64,000 nucleotides of DNA from Ruminococcus sp. (GTDB lineage: Bacteria; Bacillota; Clostridia; Oscillospirales; Ruminococcaceae): assembly GCA_020861185.1 (NCBI GenBank), contig JAJBSV010000008.1, positions 1 through 64,000 of the forward strand, in the 5' to 3' direction. A model generated the notes under the pieces. It did no database searches. It had not been told where the DNA came from and worked only from the letters and a program-made list of their open reading frames with translations. The translations under genes and the position numbers were made by a program. Numbering within the stretch: position 1 is the first letter of the stretch; each line of letters begins with the position of its first letter. Shown here one piece after another: positions 267-28,483 of the stretch.

Positions 267-294
267 TGAAAAATTTTTGGAAGGATGGGAAACC

Positions 295-3200
295 ATGAAG
301 TTAAGAAAAGTTTTGTCCTTGCTCGTGGCACTCGCGATGATGGTGCAGGTTCTGCCTCTGTCGCTGTTTGCAAACGACATGGAAAGCGTGGCGGAGTACA
401 CTGTCAGCGAGTCGGTGACCGTTGACGCTTCGTCACTTGCCGACAACGATGAGTTGCTCGAAGGATACATAGAGCAGCTGTTCGGCACCGACAGTAACAG
501 CGGAATCATGCTCGCCGCCACCTATACCGGCGAGGATGCGCTTGATGACGTAAATCTGGAGGTATACACCGCTCTGAAATCAGCGATTGCGAACATCGCC
601 TCCGGTGCGGAATCTTCGACAGTCATCACCGTGAATGTCACGCGCACTACGACAGATTTGGGCGTGGCAGAGATTACAGATGATGACACGCTCAGCGCAG
701 CTATGACTGCCTTTGACGAAGTTTTTGATAGCGATCTGGTGCTCAACTATCTCATGAATGACTGCCCCTATGAGCTCTACTGGTACGATAAATTAGAAAA
801 TACATATCTTGAGATGGGCATTTCCGGCGGGGGAACAACTTTCGTTGCCGAGATGCATTTCACCATGCCCGTAGCGACAGCCTATCAGGCAGACGGCTCG
901 ACCACCACTGTTGATTCCTCGAAGGTCACAGCGGCAACAACCGCCGCTTCGTATGCCCAGTCGCTTGTAAGCACCTACTCGAGCTACTCCGACGAAGAAA
1001 AGCTTGAAGCTTTTAAGGAAACAATCTGCTCTTTGGTTTCGTATGAGACCGACTACGCAAGCGCCGATTTCGGCGACATCTGGCAGCTCGTCTATGTCTT
1101 CGACCAGGACAGCACTACCAACGTTGTCTGCGAGGGCTACTCAAAGGCGTTCCAGTATCTCTGCGACCTTGCAGGACTCGAGAGCATCATCGTCACCGGC
1201 ACAATGTCCGGCGGCACGGGTGCAGGCGAGCACATGTGGAACGTCGTCTACCTCGACGGTGTCAACTATCTCGTTGACGTCACCAACAGCGACGACGGCT
1301 CGGTCGGACAGGACGGCGGGCTCTTCATGGTCTGCGCCGATGATGCCGATGCAAGCGACGAGACCGGCTATACCTTCACTGTCAATAATCAGACCGTCAG
1401 CTATGTTTATGACAGCACTACTCTTGAATTGTATCCGGAGGATTATCTGACCTTGGGGACGGTTACAGTTGATGAGTATACAATCACTGTTTATGCTGAC
1501 GGTTGCACCTATGATGTAGTAAGTTCAGCATTGGAGGGTGAAGAAGTCACTCTGACAATCACTCCAAAGAGTACTGCGCAGGTAGTTAATTTGACATATA
1601 CGGAGCGCGAATATGACGAAACCTATGACTACTATTATACTGTGCAGTGGGAAGAAGTAACTTATACCGGAGAATCTTCCTATACCTATACATTCACAAT
1701 GCCGGGCAATGAAGTTCAAATCGTACTTCTTGCTGGAGAATACGAAGTAACTTATTCTACAGAGGGCTATGGGTTTGCGTTTACAAATCTTGACCTTGCC
1801 AACGCAGGAGACACTGTTACAATAAACGCATGGGTCTATGATGGTTGTAGCTTGGTAGATATTTCAATCATCGATTCCGATAACAACGTTATTACTTCAA
1901 CCTATAGTGGCAATTCAACTATCTATTTCTATAATAGCGATGGGGAAGTTTATAAAACGGCTACTAATGAGATATATGAATTCACCATGCCGGCAAGTGA
2001 TGTTACTGTCACTGTCACCTTCTCAGAAGCGCCGTATAGCATTACTGTTGATGACAACGTAGAAAACGGAACGATAACTACTTATTCGACTTCTGCTATT
2101 GAGGGAGATTCGATTCCATTTCTTGTGGAACCCGATGAGGGATATGCAATTTCCGAAGTCACAGTAACGACCACAAGCGGAGAAACGGTAGAATTAGCTG
2201 TTGCTGATGAAGAAAATGGACTTTATATCTTCTACATGCCCGCAAGTGATGTTGTTATCTCGGCGGCGTTTGAGGAAGAAAGTGAGACATATAACGTAAG
2301 CATAGCTGACACTGATAACGGCACAGTCATCTCCAGTGCTTCAACTGCTGATGAGGGTGAGACGGTTACACTTACTATAACACCTGATACTGGATATGAT
2401 GTTTCAGCTGTCGCAGTAATCGATTCTGACGGCAACGAAGTCACTGTCACTGAGCAGAGCGACGGAACTTATACCTTTGAGATGCCTGCTTCTGACGTAA
2501 CAGTAACTGTTACCGTTGACATCGGCTCTCACACCCACACCCTCACCCACGTCGAAGCAACCGACGCCACCTGCACCGAGGACGGCAACACCGAGTACTG
2601 GTACTGCGATGACTGCGACAAGTATTTCAGCGATGAAGACGCAGAGAACGAAATCACCCTTGACGATACCGTCGTAGAAGCAACCGGTCATGACTATGGC
2701 TGTGATGCGGCTACATTTACACTTTCAGTTTCCGCTTATTCGCTCATGAGTTATGCGCAGTCCGGCGATACGCTTGACATAACTCTTCCGTACAGCTTGA
2801 GTGCAAGCGACGATGTCGTTCTTCCTGTTTCCTATACGCTGACCGTAAACGGCGTGACTGTAAGCCTCAAGGGGTCTGACGGAACCGGAAGTGGTACATA
2901 CACTCAGACTGTTGACGTCGGGTATTTTGCAATGAATTATTCCGAGTCCGCAAATGCGATGATCCCGCAGTCAACATCTTTAAGCGGTGATATCGTTGTA
3001 ACCGCAATCGTTGATTGCAGCGCATACGGAAGCGACTGCACAATAGATGTAAGTGATATTGACAGTTGGGACTTTAAGCTTGGATATGTTGAGGCGGGTT
3101 CTGAAGACGGCGTCGGAGTCAACGCTGACGGCATGACCATCTCCAAGACCTACGAAAGCGCAAACGTAAGCTGGGCATGGTCGGACGACTACAGCTCCGC

Positions 3201-5397
3201 GACCGCAACCTTTACCTGCAAGAACGATTCGTCTCACACCGAGACAGCCGACGCAACAGTAACCTCCGAAACAGTCAAGGAAGCCACCTGCACCGCAACC
3301 GGAAGCGCAGTTTACACAGCGGTTGTCGATATGGATGGCACATCTTACACTGAAACAAAGACCGTAGAGCTCCCGATGATCGACCACACCGAGGGCGAAG
3401 CCGTCACCGAGAACGAAGTTGCGGCGACCTGCACCGAAGACGACTCCTATGAATCAGTCGTCTATTGCTCAGTCTGCGGCGAAGAGCTTTCGAGGGAGAC
3501 TGTAACCGTTGACGCCACCGGTCACAACTACGTTGCAACCGAAACCAGTGCAACCTGCACCGAGGGCGGCTATACAACCTATGTCTGCTCCGAATGTGGA
3601 GATACTTATACTGACAGTGAAACCGAGGCTCTCGGACATGATTACGAATCCGAAGTCACCAAGGAGCCGACCTGCGCCGAAACCGGCGTCATGACTTACA
3701 CCTGCTCAAGATGTGGCGACAGCTATACAGAAGAGATTGACATGGTCGACCACACCTACGGCGAGCCCGAATGGACTTGGGTCTGGTCTGAAACAGAGCA
3801 GACATACAACGTAACTGCCAAGTTCACCTGCACGGTATGCGGCGGAACAGATACCGAAACGGCATTGGTCACTTTTGAGACAACAGACGCAACTTGCACC
3901 GCAACCGGAAGCACCGTCTACACCGCCGTTGTCGATATGGATGGCACATCCTACAGCGATACAAAGACCGTAGAGCTCCCGATGATAGCTCACACCGAAG
4001 GCAAAGCCGTCACCGAGAACGAAGTTGCGGCGACCTGCACAACCGATGGCTCTTACGATACTGTCGTCTACTGCTCAGTTTGCGGTGAAGAGCTTTCGAG
4101 AGAGACTGTGACGGTTCCTGCAACCGGTCATACCGAAGGCGAAGCCGTCACCGAGAACGAAGTCGCGGCGACCTGCACGACTGATGGCTCTTACGACACT
4201 GTCGTTTACTGCTCAGTCTGCGGCGAGGAGCTTTCAAGAGAGACCATTACGGTTCCCGCAACCGGTCACACCACCGAAATCCAGAACGCTGTGGATGCCA
4301 CTTGCACCGAGGACGGTTACACCGGCGACGAGGTCTGCACCGTTTGTGGTGAGACAATAACCGTCGGCACTGTAATCCCGGCTACCGGACATAGCTTCAA
4401 CAGCGAAGGCGTATGCGAGGCTTGCGGAGCTAAGACAGGGGAGACCGGAACTGCTTCAACCGTAACGGTTGAGACGGACGATACCATATTCGCAAACGTC
4501 CTTCCTTCCGGATTGGTGACTTCTGCCACAATCTCGATTTCTAACGACAACGGCGGCACGCTTGTTGTTTCAACCGTCGTAGAGATTAGTGCTTATCCCT
4601 ACCTCGTTGAGCATATTGCCGACACGCTCAGCTTCACTCTCTATAACGAGGCGCAGGGCGACGACCTTATCAGCGACACCAACAGCTTCACGATTACAAC
4701 TACAGAGAATAACAAGAAGACACTCAAGAAGGTCTCAATGCTCTTCTACGGAGATGTTGACTACAGCGGCACCGGCACTTCCACCGTTACGATGAACTTC
4801 GCCGCAACGTCTGACCTTTCGTCGAGCGATATATATGTGCTTCACTACACCGGCTCATATCCCACATGGGAAGTAGTGACAAGCACCGTCACATTCGGCG
4901 ACACTGCAGTCACCGTTGAGTTCGAGGCTTCCGACTACTCGCCGTTCGTTGTACTTTCAGTAGCGAGCGCATCCTCCGGCGGAAGTTCTTCGATTATAGA
5001 CATTCTCCTGAGAATCTCTGCGAACTACTCCGACGTCACCGAGGCTATAGACAGAGCGAACGCTCTCAACCCGAGCGACTACGAGAACTTCTCGGCTGTA
5101 ACCGAAGCAATCAACGCCGTTAATTGGAACCTGAAGGCAATCAACCAGCTGACCGTCAACGCCTATGCCGACGCAATCAACACGGCGATTGATAATCTGG
5201 TCAAGACCACAGCCAACATCACCGAGGAAACGGTCAATATTGCCGAGCCGATTGAGGATACAAACTCCGATACGGAAGACGATGAAGAATCGTCCGAAAC
5301 TCCCGAACCTGAAAGCAACCCAACAACCGGAATTGCATTCTCGATTCTTCCGATGGTGATAGCCGCACTTGCGGCGGCATCTTCAAAGAGAAGATAA
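295..5397 (+). CDS. Giant secreted surface protein with transglutaminase-like domain and sorting signal
   Basis: About 1700 residues. The ATG at 295 is chosen because GGAAGGA (279-285) sits about 9 nt upstream; a TTG at 277 is the other option. It has a signal peptide (residues 1-26) and then a transglutaminase-like core with a Cys279, His313, Asp328 triad in the motifs CEGYSKAF, GEHMWN and LVDVTN. Residues about 395-740 are beta-rich repeats ending in MPASDV, like divergent InlB B-repeats. Residues about 756-1380 are cysteine-rich repeats with CxxC pairs. A FIVAR-like helical stretch lies near 1575-1640, and the C-terminus has NPTTG (1675-1679), a hydrophobic segment and SKRR. The end looks like a sortase signal of NPxTG type. 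The protein is probably cell-wall linked; its ligand is unknown. The gene is monocistronic, with its own promoter and terminator. Confidence 0.85.
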   Translation: MKLRKVLSLLVALAMMVQVLPLSLFANDMESVAEYTVSESVTVDASSLADNDELLEGYIEQLFGTDSNSGIMLAATYTGEDALDDVNLEVYTALKSAIANIASGAESSTVITVNVTRTTTDLGVAEITDDDTLSAAMTAFDEVFDSDLVLNYLMNDCPYELYWYDKLENTYLEMGISGGGTTFVAEMHFTMPVATAYQADGSTTTVDSSKVTAATTAASYAQSLVSTYSSYSDEEKLEAFKETICSLVSYETDYASADFGDIWQLVYVFDQDSTTNVVCEGYSKAFQYLCDLAGLESIIVTGTMSGGTGAGEHMWNVVYLDGVNYLVDVTNSDDGSVGQDGGLFMVCADDADASDETGYTFTVNNQTVSYVYDSTTLELYPEDYLTLGTVTVDEYTITVYADGCTYDVVSSALEGEEVTLTITPKSTAQVVNLTYTEREYDETYDYYYTVQWEEVTYTGESSYTYTFTMPGNEVQIVLLAGEYEVTYSTEGYGFAFTNLDLANAGDTVTINAWVYDGCSLVDISIIDSDNNVITSTYSGNSTIYFYNSDGEVYKTATNEIYEFTMPASDVTVTVTFSEAPYSITVDDNVENGTITTYSTSAIEGDSIPFLVEPDEGYAISEVTVTTTSGETVELAVADEENGLYIFYMPASDVVISAAFEEESETYNVSIADTDNGTVISSASTADEGETVTLTITPDTGYDVSAVAVIDSDGNEVTVTEQSDGTYTFEMPASDVTVTVTVDIGSHTHTLTHVEATDATCTEDGNTEYWYCDDCDKYFSDEDAENEITLDDTVVEATGHDYGCDAATFTLSVSAYSLMSYAQSGDTLDITLPYSLSASDDVVLPVSYTLTVNGVTVSLKGSDGTGSGTYTQTVDVGYFAMNYSESANAMIPQSTSLSGDIVVTAIVDCSAYGSDCTIDVSDIDSWDFKLGYVEAGSEDGVGVNADGMTISKTYESANVSWAWSDDYSSATATFTCKNDSSHTETADATVTSETVKEATCTATGSAVYTAVVDMDGTSYTETKTVELPMIDHTEGEAVTENEVAATCTEDDSYESVVYCSVCGEELSRETVTVDATGHNYVATETSATCTEGGYTTYVCSECGDTYTDSETEALGHDYESEVTKEPTCAETGVMTYTCSRCGDSYTEEIDMVDHTYGEPEWTWVWSETEQTYNVTAKFTCTVCGGTDTETALVTFETTDATCTATGSTVYTAVVDMDGTSYSDTKTVELPMIAHTEGKAVTENEVAATCTTDGSYDTVVYCSVCGEELSRETVTVPATGHTEGEAVTENEVAATCTTDGSYDTVVYCSVCGEELSRETITVPATGHTTEIQNAVDATCTEDGYTGDEVCTVCGETITVGTVIPATGHSFNSEGVCEACGAKTGETGTASTVTVETDDTIFANVLPSGLVTSATISISNDNGGTLVVSTVVEISAYPYLVEHIADTLSFTLYNEAQGDDLISDTNSFTITTTENNKKTLKKVSMLFYGDVDYSGTGTSTVTMNFAATSDLSSSDIYVLHYTGSYPTWEVVTSTVTFGDTAVTVEFEASDYSPFVVLSVASASSGGSSSIIDILLRISANYSDVTEAIDRANALNPSDYENFSAVTEAINAVNWNLKAINQLTVNAYADAINTAIDNLVKTTANITEETVNIAEPIEDTNSDTEDDEESSETPEPESNPTTGIAFSILPMVIAALAAASSKRR
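3286..4266 (+). repeat. Duplicated cysteine-repeat units inside the surface-protein gene
   Basis: Three near-identical 138-bp units (3385-3522, 3991-4128, 4129-4266) each encode a 46-residue module beginning HTEG and containing YCSVCGEELSRET. A 99-bp segment before the first (3286-3384) recurs before the second (3892-3990), so a 237-bp block is duplicated. Units 2 and 3 are directly tandem. Such DNA-level repeats can recombine and change the protein length. Confidence 0.8.
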
Positions 5398-7243: not shown

Positions 7244-7633
7244 TTATTCCATATTAAGTGATACAAACATATCGTGAATCAGCGAATCTACCGAAAGCTG
7301 AGAAGTATAGCATTTGTAAACTCCCATCTCAGTAAGCTTGTCCATCATCTCACGCTCGGAGCCGAAATTGGTGTATACCATCGCCAGAATTAAAATCTCG
7401 GAGTCGAGCTCTTTTATTTTCTGTACCAGTTCAAAGATATCATAAGCCTTACTGTTAGAGATAAAAACAATCTGCGGGTGGAACTCCGCTACTTTGCCTA
7501 TAATATCTTCTTTCGCACTGACATGGTCAAACTCATAAGTGTCCGGTACCTCGTTCTCAATCAGGTCGCTTAAGCTTATCGCTCCCTTTTTGACTTTCTT
7601 CTCCTGAATAAATAATACTTTGATTTTGGGCAT
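7244..7633 (-). CDS. Receiver-like (CheY-fold) protein without the usual phosphoacceptor
   Basis: 129 residues. Alternating strands and helices (KIKVLFIQEKK, PQIVFISNS, ILILAMVY, then a GVYKCYTSQLSVDSLI tail) resemble a stand-alone response-regulator receiver domain. The acidic pair after strand 1 is missing, and the position of the phosphorylated Asp after strand 3 reads SNSKAYD, so ordinary phosphorylation is doubtful. The start at 7633 (MPKIK) is chosen because the upstream ATG at 7654 contains the ribosome site GGAG itself. The gene lies 13 bp upstream of the remnant ABC start on the same strand, so it may once have been co-transcribed with it. The function is not known. Confidence 0.6.
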   Translation of the reverse strand: MPKIKVLFIQEKKVKKGAISLSDLIENEVPDTYEFDHVSAKEDIIGKVAEFHPQIVFISNSKAYDIFELVQKIKELDSEILILAMVYTNFGSEREMMDKLTEMGVYKCYTSQLSVDSLIHDMFVSLNME

Positions 7634-7751
7634 GTTTTTTACTTCTCCTTTCATGCGATTCGCTACACTTATATAAACACCAAAATAAGCGAAAAGGGTG
7701 CAATTATTGTTTATAATTTTTCTCGCCGCAATCGATGTAACTCTACAAATA

Positions 7752-7788
7752 TTAAGAATTCTTAAGATTATATTAAGATTTCTTAATA
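7752..7788 (+). promoter_or_regulatory. Four-hexamer TTAAGA operator (OmpR/PhoB-like box)
   Basis: TTAAGA at 7752, 7762 and 7773 and TTAATA at 7783 have start-to-start spacings of 10, 11 and 10 bp. A -35 element begins 10 bp further on. Direct hexamers repeated once per helical turn and ending at the -35 are the classical target of winged-helix response regulators of the OmpR/PhoB family. The same array with the same spacing occurs at 24994-25030. The regulator is not in this window. Confidence 0.75.
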
Positions 7789-7792
7789 ATTC

Positions 7793-7821
7793 TTGATTTC
7801 CACTATTTCATTTGCTATCAT
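7793..7821 (+). promoter_or_regulatory. Promoter of the DUF1287 gene
   Basis: TTGATT (7793-7798), a 17-bp spacer and TATCAT (7816-7821), with an extended -10 TG at 7813-7814. It directly follows the TTAAGA array. It covers the TTG at 7793 that would give a longer open frame, which is why the gene start is placed at 7853. Confidence 0.75.
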
Positions 7822-7852: not shown

Positions 7853-8560
7853 ATGAAAGCAAAAACAGGAAAACTGAGAATGGGTAGGCTTATTCTACTT
7901 ATTGCTCTTATTGCGATTGTGGCGTATTTTTTTGCCCATCGCTCAGTTCTCTATCAGAGATTTGGCGGAATTATTTCGGGGACACGACAGGTTGATTCCG
8001 GGGAGAAGTATTCTGCTGAGGATTTCGGCATTACCGAGTATGTAAGCTCCGTTGACCATGATGGTGATGGCATTGACGACCAGACGGATATTCTGGAAAA
8101 CGTCCGGGAGTACATAGCAACCTCGCCTCAATACAAGTCTAATTACTATGCCGAGGGCTACCCCGACGACGGCTACGGCGTCTGTACCGATGTTGTCGCT
8201 TTCGGGCTCTTGGGAGCGGGTTACGACTTAAGACAGCTCGTCTACGATGACAAACAAGCCAATCCCGAAGCCTATTCAAACGAAATCCGCGACATCAATA
8301 TCGACTTTCGTCGTGTCCGCAATCTTCTGATTTACTTTGAGCGTCACGCAGTCTCCCTGACTACTGACGTCACTGAAATTGCAGAATGGCAGGGCGGGGA
8401 TATAGTCGTCTTCGAAAATCACATCGGCATCGTTTCTGACGTCAGAAACGAAAACGGCACCCCGTGGATAATCCATCATGGATCAAGTACTCAATCCGCT
8501 TATGAACAGGACATCTTGGAACTCCGTGACGACATCGTTGGGCATTTCAGAATCTCATAA
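7853..8560 (+). CDS. DUF1287 family cell-envelope protein (NlpC/P60-like)
   Basis: 235 residues. An N-terminal membrane anchor or signal (residues about 11-27) precedes a DUF1287 domain: a calcium-loop-like DHDGDGIDDQTDIL, then GVCTDVVAFGL with the likely nucleophilic Cys, NIDFRRVRNL, and WQGGDIVVFENHIGIVSD with the likely catalytic His. DUF1287 belongs to the papain-like NlpC/P60 clan and its members are thought to act on the cell envelope; the substrate is not established. ATG 7853 follows GGGTGA at a good distance. The gene is monocistronic between the operator-promoter at 7752-7821 and the terminator at 8567. Sharing that operator with the lipoprotein/ABC operon at 25 kb suggests a role in an envelope-stress response (inference). 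Confidence 0.75.
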   Translation: MKAKTGKLRMGRLILLIALIAIVAYFFAHRSVLYQRFGGIISGTRQVDSGEKYSAEDFGITEYVSSVDHDGDGIDDQTDILENVREYIATSPQYKSNYYAEGYPDDGYGVCTDVVAFGLLGAGYDLRQLVYDDKQANPEAYSNEIRDINIDFRRVRNLLIYFERHAVSLTTDVTEIAEWQGGDIVVFENHIGIVSDVRNENGTPWIIHHGSSTQSAYEQDILELRDDIVGHFRIS

Positions 8561-21322: not shown

Positions 21323-22885
21323 ATGATTTACCTGTTCAAGGCGCTGAGCGTTTTAGTATACTTATTTGCCGCTTGCCTTTCCGCACGCCATTTCATCCAC
21401 ATGTTCCAGCTGAACTCATATAAGCCACATGTTCAGGCAAAGTGGCTTCTCTCACATGCTTCGACATATATGGTAGTGCATTTGATTGTGCTTGTGATTG
21501 CAATCGCACTGAGTGCAATCTGCACAAATGCTTTGATTCCGCTCATACTCTCCGCAATACTGATTCTATTGACAGCCATCCCGGATATTCCGAAGGGCAA
21601 GGACAAAGTCCCGCTCAAGTATACTGCCCGTGTAAAGAGACTTATACTGACACTTGCAATACTCTATGTAATCCCGATAATTCTTTTGTGGATTATTCCC
21701 GTGAAAATCTCCGTGCCTCTTATGGCTCTATGGATATTCCTTGTTCCGTGGATGGTACTTCTTGCAAACCTCATCAATCGTCCGATGGAGCTTGCAATCA
21801 ACCGGCACTATATAAATGACGCCAAGCGAATCTTAGCCGACTGCCCGAACCTGACAGTAATCGGCATCACCGGAAGCTTCGGCAAGACGAGCGTCAAGTA
21901 TTTTCTTGATTCGCTCCTGAGTGTCAGATATAACGTCCTCAAAACTCCCGGCAATTTCAATACGCCTCTGGGGGTAGTCAAGACAATCAGAGGTTCTCTA
22001 AGAGCTACTCACGATATCTTCCTCTGCGAAATGGGTGCCAAAAATGTCGGCGACATCAAGGAAATCTGCGACATAGTTCATCCCACTCACGGAATCATAA
22101 CCTCAGTGGGGGAGATGCACCTTGAAAGCTTCGGCTCGATTGAGAACGTCAAAAAGACCAAGTTCGAGCTCGCCGATGCCGTCAAAGGCAAGGGAATGCT
22201 TTTCTTGAACATGGATAACGAAAACATCCAGTCGGTGGCACCCAGCTATGATCACATTTCCTACGGCATAGACGACCGCTCTGGCTACTATGTAACCGAT
22301 CTCACTATTTCCGAAAAGGGCTCCCAGTTCACTGTTCATGCTCCCTCCGGCAAGAGCTGCGAGTACCGTACGCCTCTTATCGGCAGGCATAACGTCGTGA
22401 ATATCTGTGGAGCGATTGCAGTTGCAAATTCTCTCGGGATAACTCTTGACGAGCTCAAGGCGCCTGTCCGCAAGCTCGAAAGCGTCCCTCACCGCCTTCA
22501 GCTCATCAACAAGGGCGACTATACCGTCATCGATGACGCCTATAATTCAAATCCCTCCGGCGCAAGAGCGGCTCTCGAAGCTATTTCAATGACGGACGGC
22601 ATGAAAATTCTTGTCACTCCCGGGATGATAGAGCTTGGTTCCAAGCAGTATGAACTCAACAAAGAATTCGGAACGGAAGCCGCCGCAGTCTGCGATTTCG
22701 TTGCGCTTGTCGGCTCAGCCCAGACGAAGCCCATCCACGACGGGCTCACAGAAGCCGGCTACCCGGAAGATAAAATCTATGTTGCGGAATCGTTAAATGA
22801 GGCTATGCAGAAAGTTTACTCCTTGACAACCGACGGAAAACGTAAGATAATACTACTTGAAAACGACTTACCCGATAATTATTGA
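21323..22885 (+). CDS. murF: MurF-type ligase with N-terminal membrane domain
   Basis: 520 residues. Residues 1 to about 160 hold roughly five hydrophobic segments; the Mur ligase starts near 175 with P-loop ITGSFGKTSVK (about 180-190), then TPGNFNTPLGVV, CEMGAKNVGDI, GRHNVVNICGAIAVA, DDAYNSNPSGARAAL and a terminal IILLENDLPD. MurF adds D-Ala-D-Ala to the UDP-MurNAc-tripeptide. Ordinary MurF is soluble and about 450 residues, so the membrane extension is unusual. The start has GGAGG at a good distance. ddl begins 22 bp after its stop, which supports the substrate assignment. Confidence 0.85.
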   Translation: MIYLFKALSVLVYLFAACLSARHFIHMFQLNSYKPHVQAKWLLSHASTYMVVHLIVLVIAIALSAICTNALIPLILSAILILLTAIPDIPKGKDKVPLKYTARVKRLILTLAILYVIPIILLWIIPVKISVPLMALWIFLVPWMVLLANLINRPMELAINRHYINDAKRILADCPNLTVIGITGSFGKTSVKYFLDSLLSVRYNVLKTPGNFNTPLGVVKTIRGSLRATHDIFLCEMGAKNVGDIKEICDIVHPTHGIITSVGEMHLESFGSIENVKKTKFELADAVKGKGMLFLNMDNENIQSVAPSYDHISYGIDDRSGYYVTDLTISEKGSQFTVHAPSGKSCEYRTPLIGRHNVVNICGAIAVANSLGITLDELKAPVRKLESVPHRLQLINKGDYTVIDDAYNSNPSGARAALEAISMTDGMKILVTPGMIELGSKQYELNKEFGTEAAAVCDFVALVGSAQTKPIHDGLTEAGYPEDKIYVAESLNEAMQKVYSLTTDGKRKIILLENDLPDNY

Positions 22886-22907
22886 TATAAGGAAGGAAGA
22901 CCAATAT

Positions 22908-24095
22908 ATGAAAATTAAACTCACACTACTCTTCGGAGGCAGAAGCACCGAGCATGAGATTTCGATAATCTCTGCTCTTCAGGCTTACTCCTACCTCGAT
23001 AAGGATAAGTATGACATCATCCCCATCTACATATCAAAAACCGGCGAAATGTACACCGGAGAGCATGAAGCGGACATCGAAGCCTATAAGGACATAAAGA
23101 AGCTTCTCTCGGAGAGCTATCGCGTCACTTTTGCAAGAGTAGGAGACAGGGTAGAGCTCCACAGAGTGGAAACAAAGCTCTTCCAGAAGCCTTTTGTTGA
23201 CTATGTCGACATTGCTTTCCCAATAGTCCATGGCACCAACGTCGAGGACGGAACCCTTGCCGGGTACCTCAATATGCTCGGTCTGCCGTATGTCGGCTGT
23301 GACGTCCTTTCGTCGGCTCTCGGAATGGATAAATACGCCATGAAGTGTGTTTTCAAGGACAACGGAATCCCGGTTCTTGACTGCATGCTCTGCTATTCCG
23401 ACGAATTTGACGAGAACCCGAATCTTGTCATGCTCAGTATCGAGAAGAAGTTCGACTATCCAGTCATTGTCAAGCCTGTCAATCTTGGCTCCAGTATCGG
23501 TATATCAAAGGCGGATTCAAGAGAAAAGCTTGAGACTGCTCTTTCGGACGCCTTCAAATACTCGAAGAAGATTCTTGTAGAGCGTGCTATAACGAACCTG
23601 ACCGAGGTCAACTGCTCGGTTTTAGGTGACGACAGGGAAGCCGAAGCCTCCGTCTGTGAAAGACCTGTCAGTGCCGATGAAATCTTAAGCTTCAACGATA
23701 AGTACATGAGCGGCTCAAAGTCCTCGAAGGGTATGGCGAGCACCAAGCGCATTATCCCTGCGGACATCTCTCAGGAGAACACAACTGCTATTCAGGAATA
23801 TGCTGTCAAGTCTTTCAAGGCTCTCGGTTGCAACGGTGTTGCCAGAATCGACTTCATGATTGATAACGACTCCGGTGAGGTATACCTAAACGAAATCAAC
23901 ACCATCCCCGGCTCGCTTTCCTTCTATCTCTGGGAGCCCAAGGGCGTTAAGTATTCAGTTCTTCTCGAGAGAATGATTTCCCTCTCCCTCAAGCGCTACC
24001 GTGAACAGCAGAGCATCACCTATACCTTTGACACGAATGTCTTAAGCGGTGTCCACCTCGGCGGCGCAAAGGGTGTCAAGGGCGGGAAGGCATAA
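22908..24095 (+). CDS. ddl: D-alanine-D-alanine ligase
   Basis: 395 residues, slightly longer than usual (about 310-370). ATP-grasp motifs: LLFGGRSTEHEISIISA at the N-terminus, HGTNVEDGTLAGYLNMLGLPYVG, VIVKPVNLGSSIGISK, and the metal-binding YLNEINTIPGSLSFYLWE. It makes the D-Ala-D-Ala dipeptide used by the MurF encoded just upstream. ATG 22908 follows GGAAGG; the longer frame from 22857 overlaps murF and is not needed. Whether it prefers D-Ala or D-lactate/D-Ser as the second substrate cannot be settled by eye. Confidence 0.88.
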   Translation: MKIKLTLLFGGRSTEHEISIISALQAYSYLDKDKYDIIPIYISKTGEMYTGEHEADIEAYKDIKKLLSESYRVTFARVGDRVELHRVETKLFQKPFVDYVDIAFPIVHGTNVEDGTLAGYLNMLGLPYVGCDVLSSALGMDKYAMKCVFKDNGIPVLDCMLCYSDEFDENPNLVMLSIEKKFDYPVIVKPVNLGSSIGISKADSREKLETALSDAFKYSKKILVERAITNLTEVNCSVLGDDREAEASVCERPVSADEILSFNDKYMSGSKSSKGMASTKRIIPADISQENTTAIQEYAVKSFKALGCNGVARIDFMIDNDSGEVYLNEINTIPGSLSFYLWEPKGVKYSVLLERMISLSLKRYREQQSITYTFDTNVLSGVHLGGAKGVKGGKA

Positions 24096-24993: not shown

Positions 24994-25030
24994 TTAAGAA
25001 CTATTAAGATTAGATTAAGATTTCTTAATA
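24994..25030 (+). promoter_or_regulatory. Four-hexamer TTAAGA operator, second copy
   Basis: TTAAGA at 24994, 25004 and 25015 and TTAATA at 25025: spacing 10, 11 and 10 bp, and 10 bp more to the -35 at 25035. Hexamer order, spacing and the final T variant are the same as at 7752-7788, 17 kb away in front of an unrelated gene. This points to one shared OmpR/PhoB-type activator. Confidence 0.8.
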
Positions 25031-25034
25031 TTTA

Positions 25035-25064
25035 TTGACTTGCAGGAAATGCGGGGTGTAAACT
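25035..25064 (+). promoter_or_regulatory. Promoter of the lipoprotein/ABC operon
   Basis: TTGACT (25035-25040), an 18-bp spacer and TAAACT (25059-25064). The -10 is weak, as expected for an activator-dependent promoter. Confidence 0.6.
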
Positions 25065-25094
25065 TTAACCATCAAACCCGAAAGGAACATGATT

Positions 25095-25721
25095 ATGAAA
25101 AGAATATTTGCTCTTACTATTTCACTCGCTCTTGCGATCTTCCTTGTCGGTTGCGGCTCGGAGGATATGATGTACTCAGAAAGCAATGCAGGCTCCGTCG
25201 ATTCTTCCTACTCCATCCCGTACTATGTGGCAGAAACCGACGGCGCCATCTATGTCGACTGCAATGTGAATTCAGTAAACGTTGAAGAGGGGAAGATAAC
25301 CTCTGTCTCAGACCTTGGCAGAATCAACGACTGGTACTCAGCACTTTCCGATGACGGAACCCTTGCCGATGGCTACGTTTTCGTAACGGTCGAAGTAACT
25401 CTCAACAGTCCCGAAACCATCGACTCCCTCAGTCTTTCCTGCTTCTGGCTTTGCTATGGCAAGTCAAGCAAGAACTACGACTTCAAAGAACCGAGTTACA
25501 TCAGTGACTCAGCCGCTCCCGATGATGTGCACAATGCTATGACTGTAAACGTCACTGCAAATGAGGACAAAACCGTTACAATAGGCTATCTCATGGCGAA
25601 ATCAGGACTCGAAGACTCGAAATATATCGCTTTGGGTGCGGCATTCACCGACTTCGGCGATGATGGCGAATATACGAATCCGCTTATCAAGCTTGCCGAC
25701 AGCCTGGAGGAGCTTTCATGA
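25095..25721 (+). CDS. Lipoprotein of an ABC transporter operon
   Basis: 208 residues. A lipoprotein signal with lipobox LVGC (cysteine about residue 20), an Asp/Ser-rich spacer, then a beta-rich domain with ITSVSDL, VFVTVEVTLNSPE and a C-terminal VTIGYLM. The pattern recalls the immunoglobulin-like DUF4352 group, but I cannot assign a family firmly. ATG 25095 is taken, with AAGGAA 6 nt upstream. The stop overlaps the ATG of the permease gene (ATGA), so it is in an operon with the ABC genes. The operator at 24994 suggests induction by an envelope signal. Confidence 0.7.
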   Translation: MKRIFALTISLALAIFLVGCGSEDMMYSESNAGSVDSSYSIPYYVAETDGAIYVDCNVNSVNVEEGKITSVSDLGRINDWYSALSDDGTLADGYVFVTVEVTLNSPETIDSLSLSCFWLCYGKSSKNYDFKEPSYISDSAAPDDVHNAMTVNVTANEDKTVTIGYLMAKSGLEDSKYIALGAAFTDFGDDGEYTNPLIKLADSLEELS

Positions 25722-26561
25722 AAGTAGCATTAAGACTGGAGTTTCGCAGGCTTTTTTTCTTCAAAAGAACTGTATGTCGCCCTTGCCATAGGTCTTGCAC
25801 TGGTCGTCTGGCTGTTTGTGCATGAGATTTTGGAATCGGTGCGCTTTGCGCAGGAATTCGCCCTCTACGGCGACAATATTTCCGGCTATCTCCATTACCC
25901 GAAAACGGTTTTCAACTCCTCGATTGAGCTCGAATATGATGCCCTCCCGCCGATACTTCTTTATCTTCTCTTCCCGATAATAGCGGCGTTTCCTTATGCG
26001 TCGACCTATTGCAAGGATAAGAAAAGCGGCTATCTCAAGAATCTTCTCGTGAGAATCGACCGCAGGGACTGCTTCATGGCAAAGTACATAGCGTCATTCT
26101 TAAGTGGATTCTTCGTGAGTGGAGTGATTTTACTGGCAAGCTTAGGACTTACCATGCTTGCCTTCCCGATGCTCATTCCCGAAGCAGTCACGCAGAACTA
26201 TTATGTCCAGTCCGGCAATATGTGGGGAGAGCTTTTCTACACAATGCCGATGCTATACACGCTTCTGTACATCCTGATTGACATGCTCTGGTGCGGCTGT
26301 ATGGCGAGCTTCGCAATGCTGATAAGCATGTTCACCCGTTCGGCATTCTTAGCCGTTACCGGAAGCTTCATAGTTTTCGAAGTCCTGGATTATGTCCTCT
26401 CGCTCTTCTCGCTATCGCAGTTCAGCCCGATTACTTTTTTAAGACCGATTCAGACCTGCGATGGCATAAATTTATGGATTATCCTGACCGAATTTATAGT
26501 ATTTATGGCGGCAAGCTTCATCGGATTTTACTTTTTGGAGCGCAAGAAAGATGTATTTTAA
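25718..26561 (+). pseudogene. ABC-2-like permease, frameshifted in a T-run
   Basis: The frame from ATG 25718 encodes MKVALRLEFRRLFF and then runs out of frame after seven Ts at 25752-25758. Removing one T restores RRLFSSKELYVALAIGLALVV and a continuous 280-residue protein ending at 26561 with about six membrane segments. The region is 844 nt, one more than a multiple of three. It would be a membrane subunit of the transporter whose second permease (26551) and ATPase (27339) follow. The lesion may be a true mutation, phase variation at the homopolymer, or a sequencing error. The 11-nt overlap with the next gene is intact. Confidence 0.75.
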
Positions 26562-27336
26562 ATATGACCTGAAAGTCGGCTTCCTGCGGGATTTGCCGAA
26601 GTTTCTTATCCTCGCCTTCATAGTCTTAATCGCAAATATTTCGCTATTCAGATATGCCGAGCTGTTTTCTCTTAATCTGGAAAGTCTCGATTATATCCTA
26701 TATCTCACAAAGTCAATAGCACCATTTCCGCAAAGCGGCGAGGAGTTCAGGTTCCCTGTAGTTTGGTATCTTATACAGCTATATCTCATGTGGATAGTTG
26801 GCAGATATCCGTTTTCCTCAGTCTATGACAACCACGGCGCAAGTGTCCTGATATACGGCGGCTCGAGGTCAAGATGGTATCTCTCAAAGGTAGTGTGGAT
26901 TGCCATAACGGTGCTTGAATATTATCTCACAATGATTATAACCTCGCTTGCTTTCTGTTTGGTAACAGGCGTCCCAATCTCGTGGGAGATTAATCTTCTT
27001 GAACTTACAGAAGAGTTTTCGAGCGTGGCGCTATTTCTCCCGATAGTAACATCATTCGTAACGGGAGTATTTCAGCTATTCCTGATGACGCTGACCACGC
27101 CAATAATCAGCTTCTTCTTGGTAGCCGCCATCTCCGCCGCCTCAACCTATGTAACAAGCCCGTTGCTCTTCACAAACTGCTCCCAGTTCTTAAAGCTTTT
27201 GGCGTTTTCGGAGAACGGAATCGGAACCGGCGAAGGCTATTTAACCCTACTGATAGTATTCATACTATGCCTTGAGGCGGGGCTCATAATTTTCAACCGG
27301 CGGGACATTCTTAAAAGTCAGAGAGACGAGGAATAA
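26551..27336 (+). CDS. ABC transporter permease, second subunit
   Basis: 261 residues, about six hydrophobic segments (for example FLILAFIVLIANISLF and a C-terminal LLIVFILCLEAGLIIF), ending in a charged tail. No sequence motif gives the substrate. The start overlaps the previous permease by 11 nt, and the ATPase starts 2 nt after its stop. Paired permeases with a small ATPase and a lipoprotein resemble the lantibiotic- or peptide-immunity type of transporter (inference from layout). Confidence 0.7.
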   Translation: MYFKYDLKVGFLRDLPKFLILAFIVLIANISLFRYAELFSLNLESLDYILYLTKSIAPFPQSGEEFRFPVVWYLIQLYLMWIVGRYPFSSVYDNHGASVLIYGGSRSRWYLSKVVWIAITVLEYYLTMIITSLAFCLVTGVPISWEINLLELTEEFSSVALFLPIVTSFVTGVFQLFLMTLTTPIISFFLVAAISAASTYVTSPLLFTNCSQFLKLLAFSENGIGTGEGYLTLLIVFILCLEAGLIIFNRRDILKSQRDEE

Positions 27337-27338
27337 CT

Positions 27339-27968
27339 ATGATTTTGGAACTACAAAACGTAACGAAAACAATAAAAGGCGTGACGGTCTTAGATAACAT
27401 CAGCCTCACTATGCAGGGCGGCAGGGTTTACGGCTTTCAGGGCAAGAACGGAAGCGGGAAAACGATGCTAATGCGCCTTGTCTGCGGGCTCATCAAGCCC
27501 ACGAGCGGGCAAGTCGTCATCAATGGCGAGATTTTGGGCAGAGATATCTCGTTCCCAAGAAGCGTCGGAGTGTTGATTGAGAATCCGTCTTTTCTTCCAG
27601 AATACACGGCTCTCAGGAATCTCCGGCTCTTAAGCGATTTGCGAGACCACCTTTCCGACGACGAGCTCAAAGCCGCTCTTTCCGACGCCGGTCTCGACCC
27701 GGAAGACAAGCGGAAATACCGTAGTTTTTCACTCGGCATGAAGCAAAAGCTCGGCATAGCCGCCGCAGTCATGGGAAACCCTAAGCTCGTCATCCTCGAC
27801 GAGCCCATCAACGCCGTTGACGACGCCGGAGTCGAGAATATCCGCAAAATTCTCATGAGGCTCAAAGAGCACGGCTCCCTCATCATTGTCGCCTGCCACG
27901 ACAGGGAAGAGCTTGAGCTCATCTCCGATGAAATCCTCAAAATCGACGCAGGGAGGATTGTCCCATGA
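27339..27968 (+). CDS. ABC transporter ATP-binding protein
   Basis: 209 residues, short but complete. Walker A FQGKNGSGKTMLMR, a Q-loop region with ENPSFLPEY, signature FSLGMKQKLGIA, Walker B LVILDEPINAVDD and H-loop VACHDREE. The signature and short length fit ATPases of ABC-2 exporters. It energises the permeases at 25718 and 26551. The 3' end overlaps the next gene by 4 nt. Confidence 0.88.
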   Translation: MILELQNVTKTIKGVTVLDNISLTMQGGRVYGFQGKNGSGKTMLMRLVCGLIKPTSGQVVINGEILGRDISFPRSVGVLIENPSFLPEYTALRNLRLLSDLRDHLSDDELKAALSDAGLDPEDKRKYRSFSLGMKQKLGIAAAVMGNPKLVILDEPINAVDDAGVENIRKILMRLKEHGSLIIVACHDREELELISDEILKIDAGRIVP

Positions 27969-28483
27969 AGCGAATCATAGCCATTATCGCTGTGCTTGCG
28001 ATAGCTTTCACCGCAAGAGTTATATATGTCAACGCTGTCGAATATCGTTTCACCGAAAAATCAGTCTTTGAGACTGGTGAGACCTTCACTCTTTACGACT
28101 TGGAGCTCACCTGCACCTACGACGGCATCTACTCTTCGGAGGAGCTCGCCAAAATCTACGGCGAAGAAGTCCGGGACTATTCCAACGAATCCGACCTGAT
28201 TCTGACCCTCGAAATCACCAATCCTACAGACGAGCCTCAGACCCTCAATCTCACCTCCTTCTGTATGCAATACGCTTATATTCCCGGCGGAGGCATCAAC
28301 CCCTATCTCTTCGCCTACCTGAACCCCGGCATCGGCTCGAAATGTACCGTAGAATCGGGTGAAACCCTCACCGTCCTCCTCCCATACCTTTATGACTGGG
28401 ATACCCTTGGCACCGAGAAGCCCTACGACCTCGTCCTGTCCCTCTATCCCGAGAATGTGAGGGTGAGGGTAGTAGAGAAGTAA
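27965..28483 (+). CDS. Membrane-anchored extracytoplasmic protein of the ABC operon
   Basis: 172 residues. An uncleaved N-terminal anchor (KRIIAIIAVLAIAFTARVIYV) then a beta-rich domain with DLILTLEITNPTDEP and a C-terminal DLVLSLYPENVRVRV. It resembles the lipoprotein at 25095 in overall make-up (conserved ITNPT-type strand), so both may be sensors or immunity factors of the transporter. No family is certain. The start overlaps the ATPase gene (ATGA), so it is translationally coupled. Confidence 0.65.
   Translation: MKRIIAIIAVLAIAFTARVIYVNAVEYRFTEKSVFETGETFTLYDLELTCTYDGIYSSEELAKIYGEEVRDYSNESDLILTLEITNPTDEPQTLNLTSFCMQYAYIPGGGINPYLFAYLNPGIGSKCTVESGETLTVLLPYLYDWDTLGTEKPYDLVLSLYPENVRVRVVEK

Follow-up and report, generated by a model that had tools for sequence, protein, structure and literature searches.

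Helix-phased TTAA operator arrays suggest a VanR-like two-component regulon that includes a DUF1287 gene and an ABC transporter operon in Ruminococcus

Two promoters with matching operator arrays

The DNA analysed here, referred to as the window, is a stretch of 64,000 nucleotides from a Ruminococcus sp. genome (G000; 1,966,847 bases in 16 contigs). It carries two putative promoters that are each preceded by an array of four TTAAGA-type boxes (Table 1). The first stands before a gene whose product belongs to the DUF1287 family and is predicted to be a cell-wall cysteine amidase. In the available part of PMC10318531, DUF1287 is grouped with the NlpC/P60-group amidases, which have a Cys-His-His triad. 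The second stands before an operon for a lipoprotein and an ABC transporter.

Table 1. Positions of the arrays, promoters, downstream genes and candidate regulatory genes (positions are those of the window unless a contig is named).
Feature	Position	Strand	Description
Operator array 1	7752..7788	+	TTAAGA-N4-TTAAGA-N5-TTAAGA-N4-TTAATA, exact pattern; upstream of DUF1287 gene
Promoter 1 (from sequence)	7793..7821	+	-35 TTGATT 7793-7798, 17-bp spacer, -10 TATCAT 7816-7821
DUF1287 protein	7853..8560	+	235 aa; PF06940 2.2e-40; N-terminal hydrophobic segment by eye
Operator array 2	24994..25030	+	Order and spacing as array 1, exact pattern; upstream of lipoprotein/ABC operon
Promoter 2 (from sequence)	25035..25064	+	-35 TTGACT 25035-25040, 18-bp spacer, -10 TAAACT 25059-25064
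Predicted lipoprotein	25089..25721	+	210 aa from ATG 25089, or 208 aa from ATG 25095
Probable ABC-2-type permease	25818..26561	+	PF12679 E=1.2e-4, 21.9 bits, below cut-off 27.2
Second hydrophobic protein	26551..27336	+	Probable permease by eye and position; no family matched
ABC ATPase	27339..27968	+	PF00005 7e-30; nearest lantibiotic-protection ATPases
Small gene	27965..28483	+	172 aa, overlaps ATPase end; no family matched
Candidate regulator	G000:C5:94958-95659		Outside the window, ~87 kb from DUF1287 gene; adjoins histidine kinase
Histidine kinase	C5:95691-98078 (L037:4192-6579)		795 aa; HisKA and HATPase_c; next to regulator

The 208-aa form of the lipoprotein matched no family in Pfam or NCBIfam. 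The ABC ATPase scores 172.9 bits against the lantibiotic-protection family TIGR03740, short of its cut-off of 309.75, and a role of the operon in peptide defence is a guess.

Upstream of array 1, positions 7244-7654 of the minus strand hold a divergent gene for a 136-aa protein that appears receiver-like by eye and has no Pfam or NCBIfam match at E ≤ 1e-3, and the gene at 277-5397 (+) codes for a protein of 1706 aa that has repeats of the InlB type (PF18998) and a transglutaminase-like match scoring at its cut-off. Array 2 is preceded by an amidohydrolase gene, and further upstream, at 21323-24095 (+), lie Mur-ligase-family and D-Ala-D-Ala-ligase-family genes, the latter at 22857-24095.

The arrays are nearly unique to one genus

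An earlier note on this DNA had described an identical order of TTAAGA-type boxes with 10-11-10 spacing at the two promoters, which is exact on direct reading, and a distance of 10 bp from array to -35 in both, which holds when counted start to start; the gap itself is 4 bp at each promoter. The genome-wide search that the note had proposed, run with up to three mismatches in the four-box pattern, found only arrays 1 and 2 together with their own two reverse-strand readings, and the reversed control gave one match. With up to two mismatches, the pattern occurs in 11 of 149 genomes from the genus, family and order (the window's own included), all of one genus, and the control gave none. When a single genome per species was scanned across 84,980 species, 18 stretches came up, 12 of them congeneric. 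The six from elsewhere (four Bacteroidales, one Prevotellaceae and one Bacillota) proved on reading to be short tandem repeats and were set aside. A three-box search allowing three mismatches added two weak matches (L016 and L017), a number equal to that of the reversed control, and these were dropped. With so few matches in its own genome, among relatives and in the species-wide scan, the likeness between the two arrays is not a product of chance.

The box nearest the -35 element reads better on the opposite strand, as TCTTAATA, which is TATTAAGA reversed, and the last two boxes therefore form an inverted pair, ATTAAGA-TT-TCTTAAT. Neither a purely direct-repeat reading nor a purely palindromic one is adequate, the former owing to the mixed orientation of the boxes and the latter owing to the broken first palindrome of array 2. 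The reading of the arrays as four direct repeats in the earlier note is right only in part: the boxes are of mixed orientation, and other species have three to six of them.

Boxes before DUF1287 genes are phased to the -35 element

DUF1287 is encoded in 18 of 31 congeneric genomes (E ≤ 1e-30), and the phasing of boxes was counted in these 18 promoters, with the lipoprotein promoters left out and the -35 of L107 anchored by hand on TTGACTTCGACA. Between -80 and -5 before the -35 there are 81 TTAA words, and 80 of them fall on a single 10.5-bp ladder with start positions at -9/-10, -20, -30/-31, -40 to -42, -50 to -52, -61 to -63 and -72; the only word off the ladder lies at -44 in L098. The phase concentration at 10.5 bp is R=0.93, a value equalled by 0 of 20,000 random placements and by 0 of 20,000 sets in which each promoter was shifted relative to its -35, although these figures are not probabilities of independent events because the promoters are related. 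The phase is kept among DUF1287 proteins down to 57% identity, with box number ranging from 3 to 6. Half-sites spaced about one helical turn apart and phased to the promoter are the arrangement of OmpR/PhoB-family operators.

Of the 81 TTAA words, 68 are followed by a G or preceded by a C; the background figure, from 723 TTAA words at 46 loci in this genus with the arrays themselves counted, is 57%. Across the genus, the -20 box mostly points toward the promoter and the -10 box backward: the former, present in 14 of the 18 promoters, has only the G in nine, only the C in one and neither in four, and the latter, present in 13 of the 18, has only the C in eight, both in three, neither in two and only the G in none.

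A looser pattern, TTAA-N7-TTAA-N6/7-TTAA-N5/6-TTGA, gave 23 matches in 19 of the 31 congeneric genomes, with none in the reversed control and only two in the window's own genome. Three matches were new (in G023, G004 and G019). That of G023 lies before a gene for a VanY D-alanyl-D-alanine carboxypeptidase (PF02557, 1.6e-21) and that of G004 before one for a C39-like peptidase (PF13529, 2.3e-24), which suggests that both may be further targets of the regulon.

Targets are apparently lost and gained within one clade

Within the clade of 11 genomes that carry the array, DUF1287 was found only in the window's own genome and in G025 (E ≤ 1e-30), where array 1 is conserved (L028). Remains of the locus persist in two others. 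G029 (L027/L050) retains array 1 and its promoter (L050:495-640, on C8) and has lost the DUF1287 coding region except for a short remnant near its end, and G019 (L135) keeps the last three boxes of array 1 before a broken DUF1287 gene.

Among the 31 congeneric genomes, homologs of the lipoprotein (E ≤ 1e-10) were found in exactly the 11 with the array, and in 10 of these the array lies directly upstream of the lipoprotein gene. The exception is again G019 (L052, C13 72001-80000), where about 3 kb with two genes that look permease-like by eye separate the two. Part of the promoter region recurs before the lipoprotein gene at this locus. Apparently the regulon swaps members while the operator stays constant.

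A candidate regulator carries similar boxes at its own promoter

Seven genes of the window's genome encode an OmpR-type DNA-binding domain. The product of the one on contig C5 (Table 1), which has a receiver domain (PF00072, 3.3e-31) and a Trans_reg_C winged helix (PF00486, 3.3e-23), both above cut-off, and is encoded beside a histidine kinase gene, has the make-up of an OmpR/PhoB response regulator. Of the solved structures, RegX3 (2oqr, E=1e-43) is the closest to it in sequence. Elsewhere in the genome, L032:3476-3976 (G000:C1) codes for a protein of 166 aa that has an OmpR-type DNA-binding domain and is too short for a full receiver, and this gene is flanked by two large genes that resemble P-type cation ATPases by eye.

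Upstream regions of 170 bases were searched for a pair of TTAA words, each followed by G or preceded by C, at a distance of 10-11 or 20-23 bp. Among the seven OmpR-family genes the C5 regulator alone passes this pair test. The earlier note had advised a search for a two-component system whose own promoter bears the box, and the C5 gene lends support to that idea. From start to start its boxes are 20 and 23 bp apart, a spacing that differs from that of the target arrays, and the end of the final TTAA lies 12 bp ahead of the -10. Orthologs with 59-100% identity are present in 28 of the 31 congeneric genomes (E ≤ 1e-80). The test is passed by 23 of these 28 (0.5 expected from shuffles) and failed by five; it is passed by 11 of 27 relatives with 45-62% identity from 78 genomes of other genera (0.3 expected) and by none of five paralog controls, although the counts are not independent because most of the loci are related. 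A TTAA placed 12 bp before a TWNNNT word is found in 34 of 42 promoters of regulators of the His type described below, a loose match that in some cases is not the promoter.

G021 has a regulator piece of 67% identity that contains stops, along with a second, overlapping piece, and a phased pair lies upstream. G005 and G014, drafts rated 97 and 96% complete, have DUF1287 ladders, and the search for a C5 ortholog there found nothing closer than paralogs of about 36% identity at most.

A recognition-helix residue varies with the half-site

Among the 27 relatives from other genera, the recognition-helix residue that follows VH(I/L/V)R is His 14 times, Arg nine times and Asn four times. Pairs of TTAAG were found with 11/14 of the His proteins, 0/9 of the Arg proteins and 0/4 of the Asn proteins, and pairs of GTAAG with 0/14, 5/9 and 0/4, respectively. 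Fisher tests of His against the rest, which ignore relatedness, give P values of 3e-5 (TTAAG) and 0.016 (GTAAG); these values are after the fact because the column was chosen after viewing the alignment beside the motifs. All 28 congeneric orthologs have His, and 23 have TTAAG pairs. In two of the Arg cases, L180 and L181, a looser scan also picked up pairs that combine TTAAGA with GTAAGA.

A tree was built from 35 proteins (the 27 from other genera, six of the 28 congeneric orthologs and two outgroups). In it L175 and L178, which have His, are nested with good support in the Arg clade, beside L181, so the residue has changed at least twice on the tree. A simple rule for how OmpR-family proteins change targets, with one helix residue set against one half-site base, could follow from this pattern.

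DUF1287 is linked to the regulator in other families

Five of the 78 genomes from other genera encode DUF1287 (E ≤ 1e-15), and three of the five (G102, G107 and G110) also encode the regulator (E ≤ 1e-62). G107 and G110 belong to two families other than that of the window's genome. The DUF1287 gene of G107 ends about 120 bp before the regulator gene, beyond which an open frame taken by eye for a kinase runs to the edge of the locus and has no significant match to the window genome's kinase. The gene order in G110 is regulator, DUF1287, kinase; this kinase is 32% identical to ours over 310 residues (E=1e-37), and the regulator promoter has a TTAAG/CTTAA pair. In G102 the DUF1287 and regulator genes are on different contigs. 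By eye, no ladder was seen directly upstream of DUF1287 in G040, G098, G102 and G107, that is, in four of the five genomes.

A common regulator is the favoured explanation

Taken together, the sequence comparisons make it likely that both arrays are operators of one VanR-like OmpR/PhoB-family regulator, the C5 protein encoded beside its kinase. The common regulator of this family and the small envelope regulon proposed in the earlier note have comparative support in the phased boxes at 18 of 18 DUF1287 promoters, in the boxes at the C5 gene and in the DUF1287 genes that adjoin the regulator in two other families. TTAA half-sites, with G after or C before, are presented once per helical turn on a face of the DNA set by the -35, with starts at about -10, -20, -31 and -41 and in other species also at -52, -62 and -72. 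Dimers of the phosphorylated regulator could line this face and touch RNA polymerase at the -35. An envelope signal may then raise production of the DUF1287 cell-wall enzyme and, in one clade, of the ABC transporter operon, and the regulator would also act on its own promoter. Activation of the targets is likelier than repression. Several observations weigh against the explanation: the DUF1287 ladders in G005 and G014, where the search gave no C5 ortholog, the five congeneric regulator promoters that fail the pair test, the pass of a second regulator of this genome, L038, when 12-bp spacing is admitted, the different spacing of the regulator's own boxes, and the DUF1287 genes with no ladder in four genomes of other genera.

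Two alternatives dispense with a two-component system. A homodimeric regulator of another kind might bind palindromes of the form TTAAGA-N2-TCTTAA, with two copies 21 bp apart. Array 1 has TTAAGAATTCTTAA, both arrays have TTAAGATTTCTTAA, and the -20/-10 box pair is mostly inverted across the genus. However, the first palindrome of array 2 is broken (TTAAGAACTATTAA) in all 10 genomes with the array directly before the lipoprotein gene, the direct copy TTAAGA being retained; moreover, ladders can have odd box numbers and gaps, and both linkage and covariation favour the C5 regulator, leaving the palindrome explanation improbable. The least probable of the alternatives is that the ladder reflects intrinsic curvature or an UP-element-like promoter feature with no specific regulator. 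A+T-rich repeats helix-phased beside the -35 can by themselves raise transcription, but the G or C flank is in excess over background, the ladder pattern has just two matches in the window's genome, and the gene of the C5 regulator has boxes like these as well.

The arrays might instead be bound by another regulator with TTTAAG-type repeats, encoded at C9:192750-193430 (L038), which we take by eye to be CiaR-like and whose best NCBIfam match is RppA (223.1 bits, cut-off 250). TTTAAGG/TTTTAAG repeats lie 12 bp apart in its own promoter, an 11-bp TTTAAGG/CTTAAGG pair is located downstream of its kinase gene, and the promoter passes the pair test once a 12-bp spacing is also allowed, as do those of 3/12 L038 orthologs, with the counts for C5 orthologs unchanged. 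In addition, the site of streptococcal CiaR as given in the available text of PMC3091779, NTTAAG-N5-TTTAAG, fits the middle two boxes of both arrays (CTTAAG-N5-ATTAAG and ATTAAG-N5-ATTAAG) with one mismatch each. Yet this regulator is found in only 12 of the 31 congeneric genomes (E ≤ 1e-75; 11 of the clade and G017), and DUF1287 ladders also occur in genomes without such a match. None of the 12 promoters passes the pair test without the 12-bp spacing, and no linkage to DUF1287 was seen. On its distribution and promoters the L038 regulator is an unlikely controller of the arrays, and overall we consider this explanation improbable.

The two-component system of the L038 locus spans L038:3251-5198 (G000:C9:192750-194697), the 11-bp pair lies at L038:5225-5262, between the kinase gene and two further genes, and the repeats possibly mark a second, separate TTTAAG regulon.

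With the C5 protein as regulator, phased operators and gene neighbourhood would tie an uncharacterised family of wall enzymes, DUF1287, to a specific two-component system. The records seen for the genus are metagenome-assembled genomes, and the host is an uncultured gut-type bacterium. We offer a broader scenario tentatively, as a possibility that falls short of even odds. A VanR-like subfamily might extend over several families of the order, its His members reading TTAAG and its Arg members GTAAG after at least two changes; DUF1287 would be an old part of the circuit, once located between regulator and kinase and perhaps shaping the wall signal that the kinase senses; and in the clade of the window DUF1287 would be in the course of being lost while a new ABC operon has already acquired the same operator.

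Comparison with known systems

The pho boxes of PhoB and the arrays of other OmpR-family regulators have a half-site at each helical turn next to the -35. The arrays described here share this layout and differ in sequence, in their mixed orientation and in having three to six boxes within 75 bp.

The best NCBIfam match of the C5 regulator is the VanR family NF033117, at 237.8 bits below the cut-off of 350, and that of the kinase core is VanS, at 154.2 bits below the cut-off of 400 in a match that starts at residue 504; both proteins thus resemble these families and fall outside them. According to the portion of PMC4405338 that was available, the promoters of VanR and VanRB are bound by these proteins themselves, and sites of the VanR type are positioned on the upstream side of the -35. 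The consensus given there, (T/C)CGTANGAAA(T/A)T, resembles TTAAGA(A/T)(A/T) of the arrays. The chief difference is at the start of the half-site, which is TTAAG here and not CGTANG, and repeats of the consensus itself are not found in the arrays.

CiaR sites, as described in the accessible text of PMC3091779, share the TTAAG core with the arrays, and the distance from TTAA to -10 in the C5 regulator promoter, 12 bp, exceeds by one base that of the layout used there to search for CiaR sites. The two middle boxes fit the CiaR consensus with one mismatch and the whole array does not; it consists of four boxes at 10-11-10, the final one inverted. The target promoters here combine a ladder with a downstream -35 close to consensus (TTGACT or TTGATT). 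The recognition helix also differs, being VVEVYVSKVRKKL in CiaR (PMC3091779) and NNAVAVHMRHLREKI in the C5 regulator. Among the titles and abstract openings listed by a literature search, neither this regulon nor control of DUF1287 is named, and in the part of PMC3968067 at hand both occurrences of TTAAGA are primers. We would place the predicted system within the known OmpR/PhoB kind, as a new regulon whose regulator is VanR-like but not VanR.
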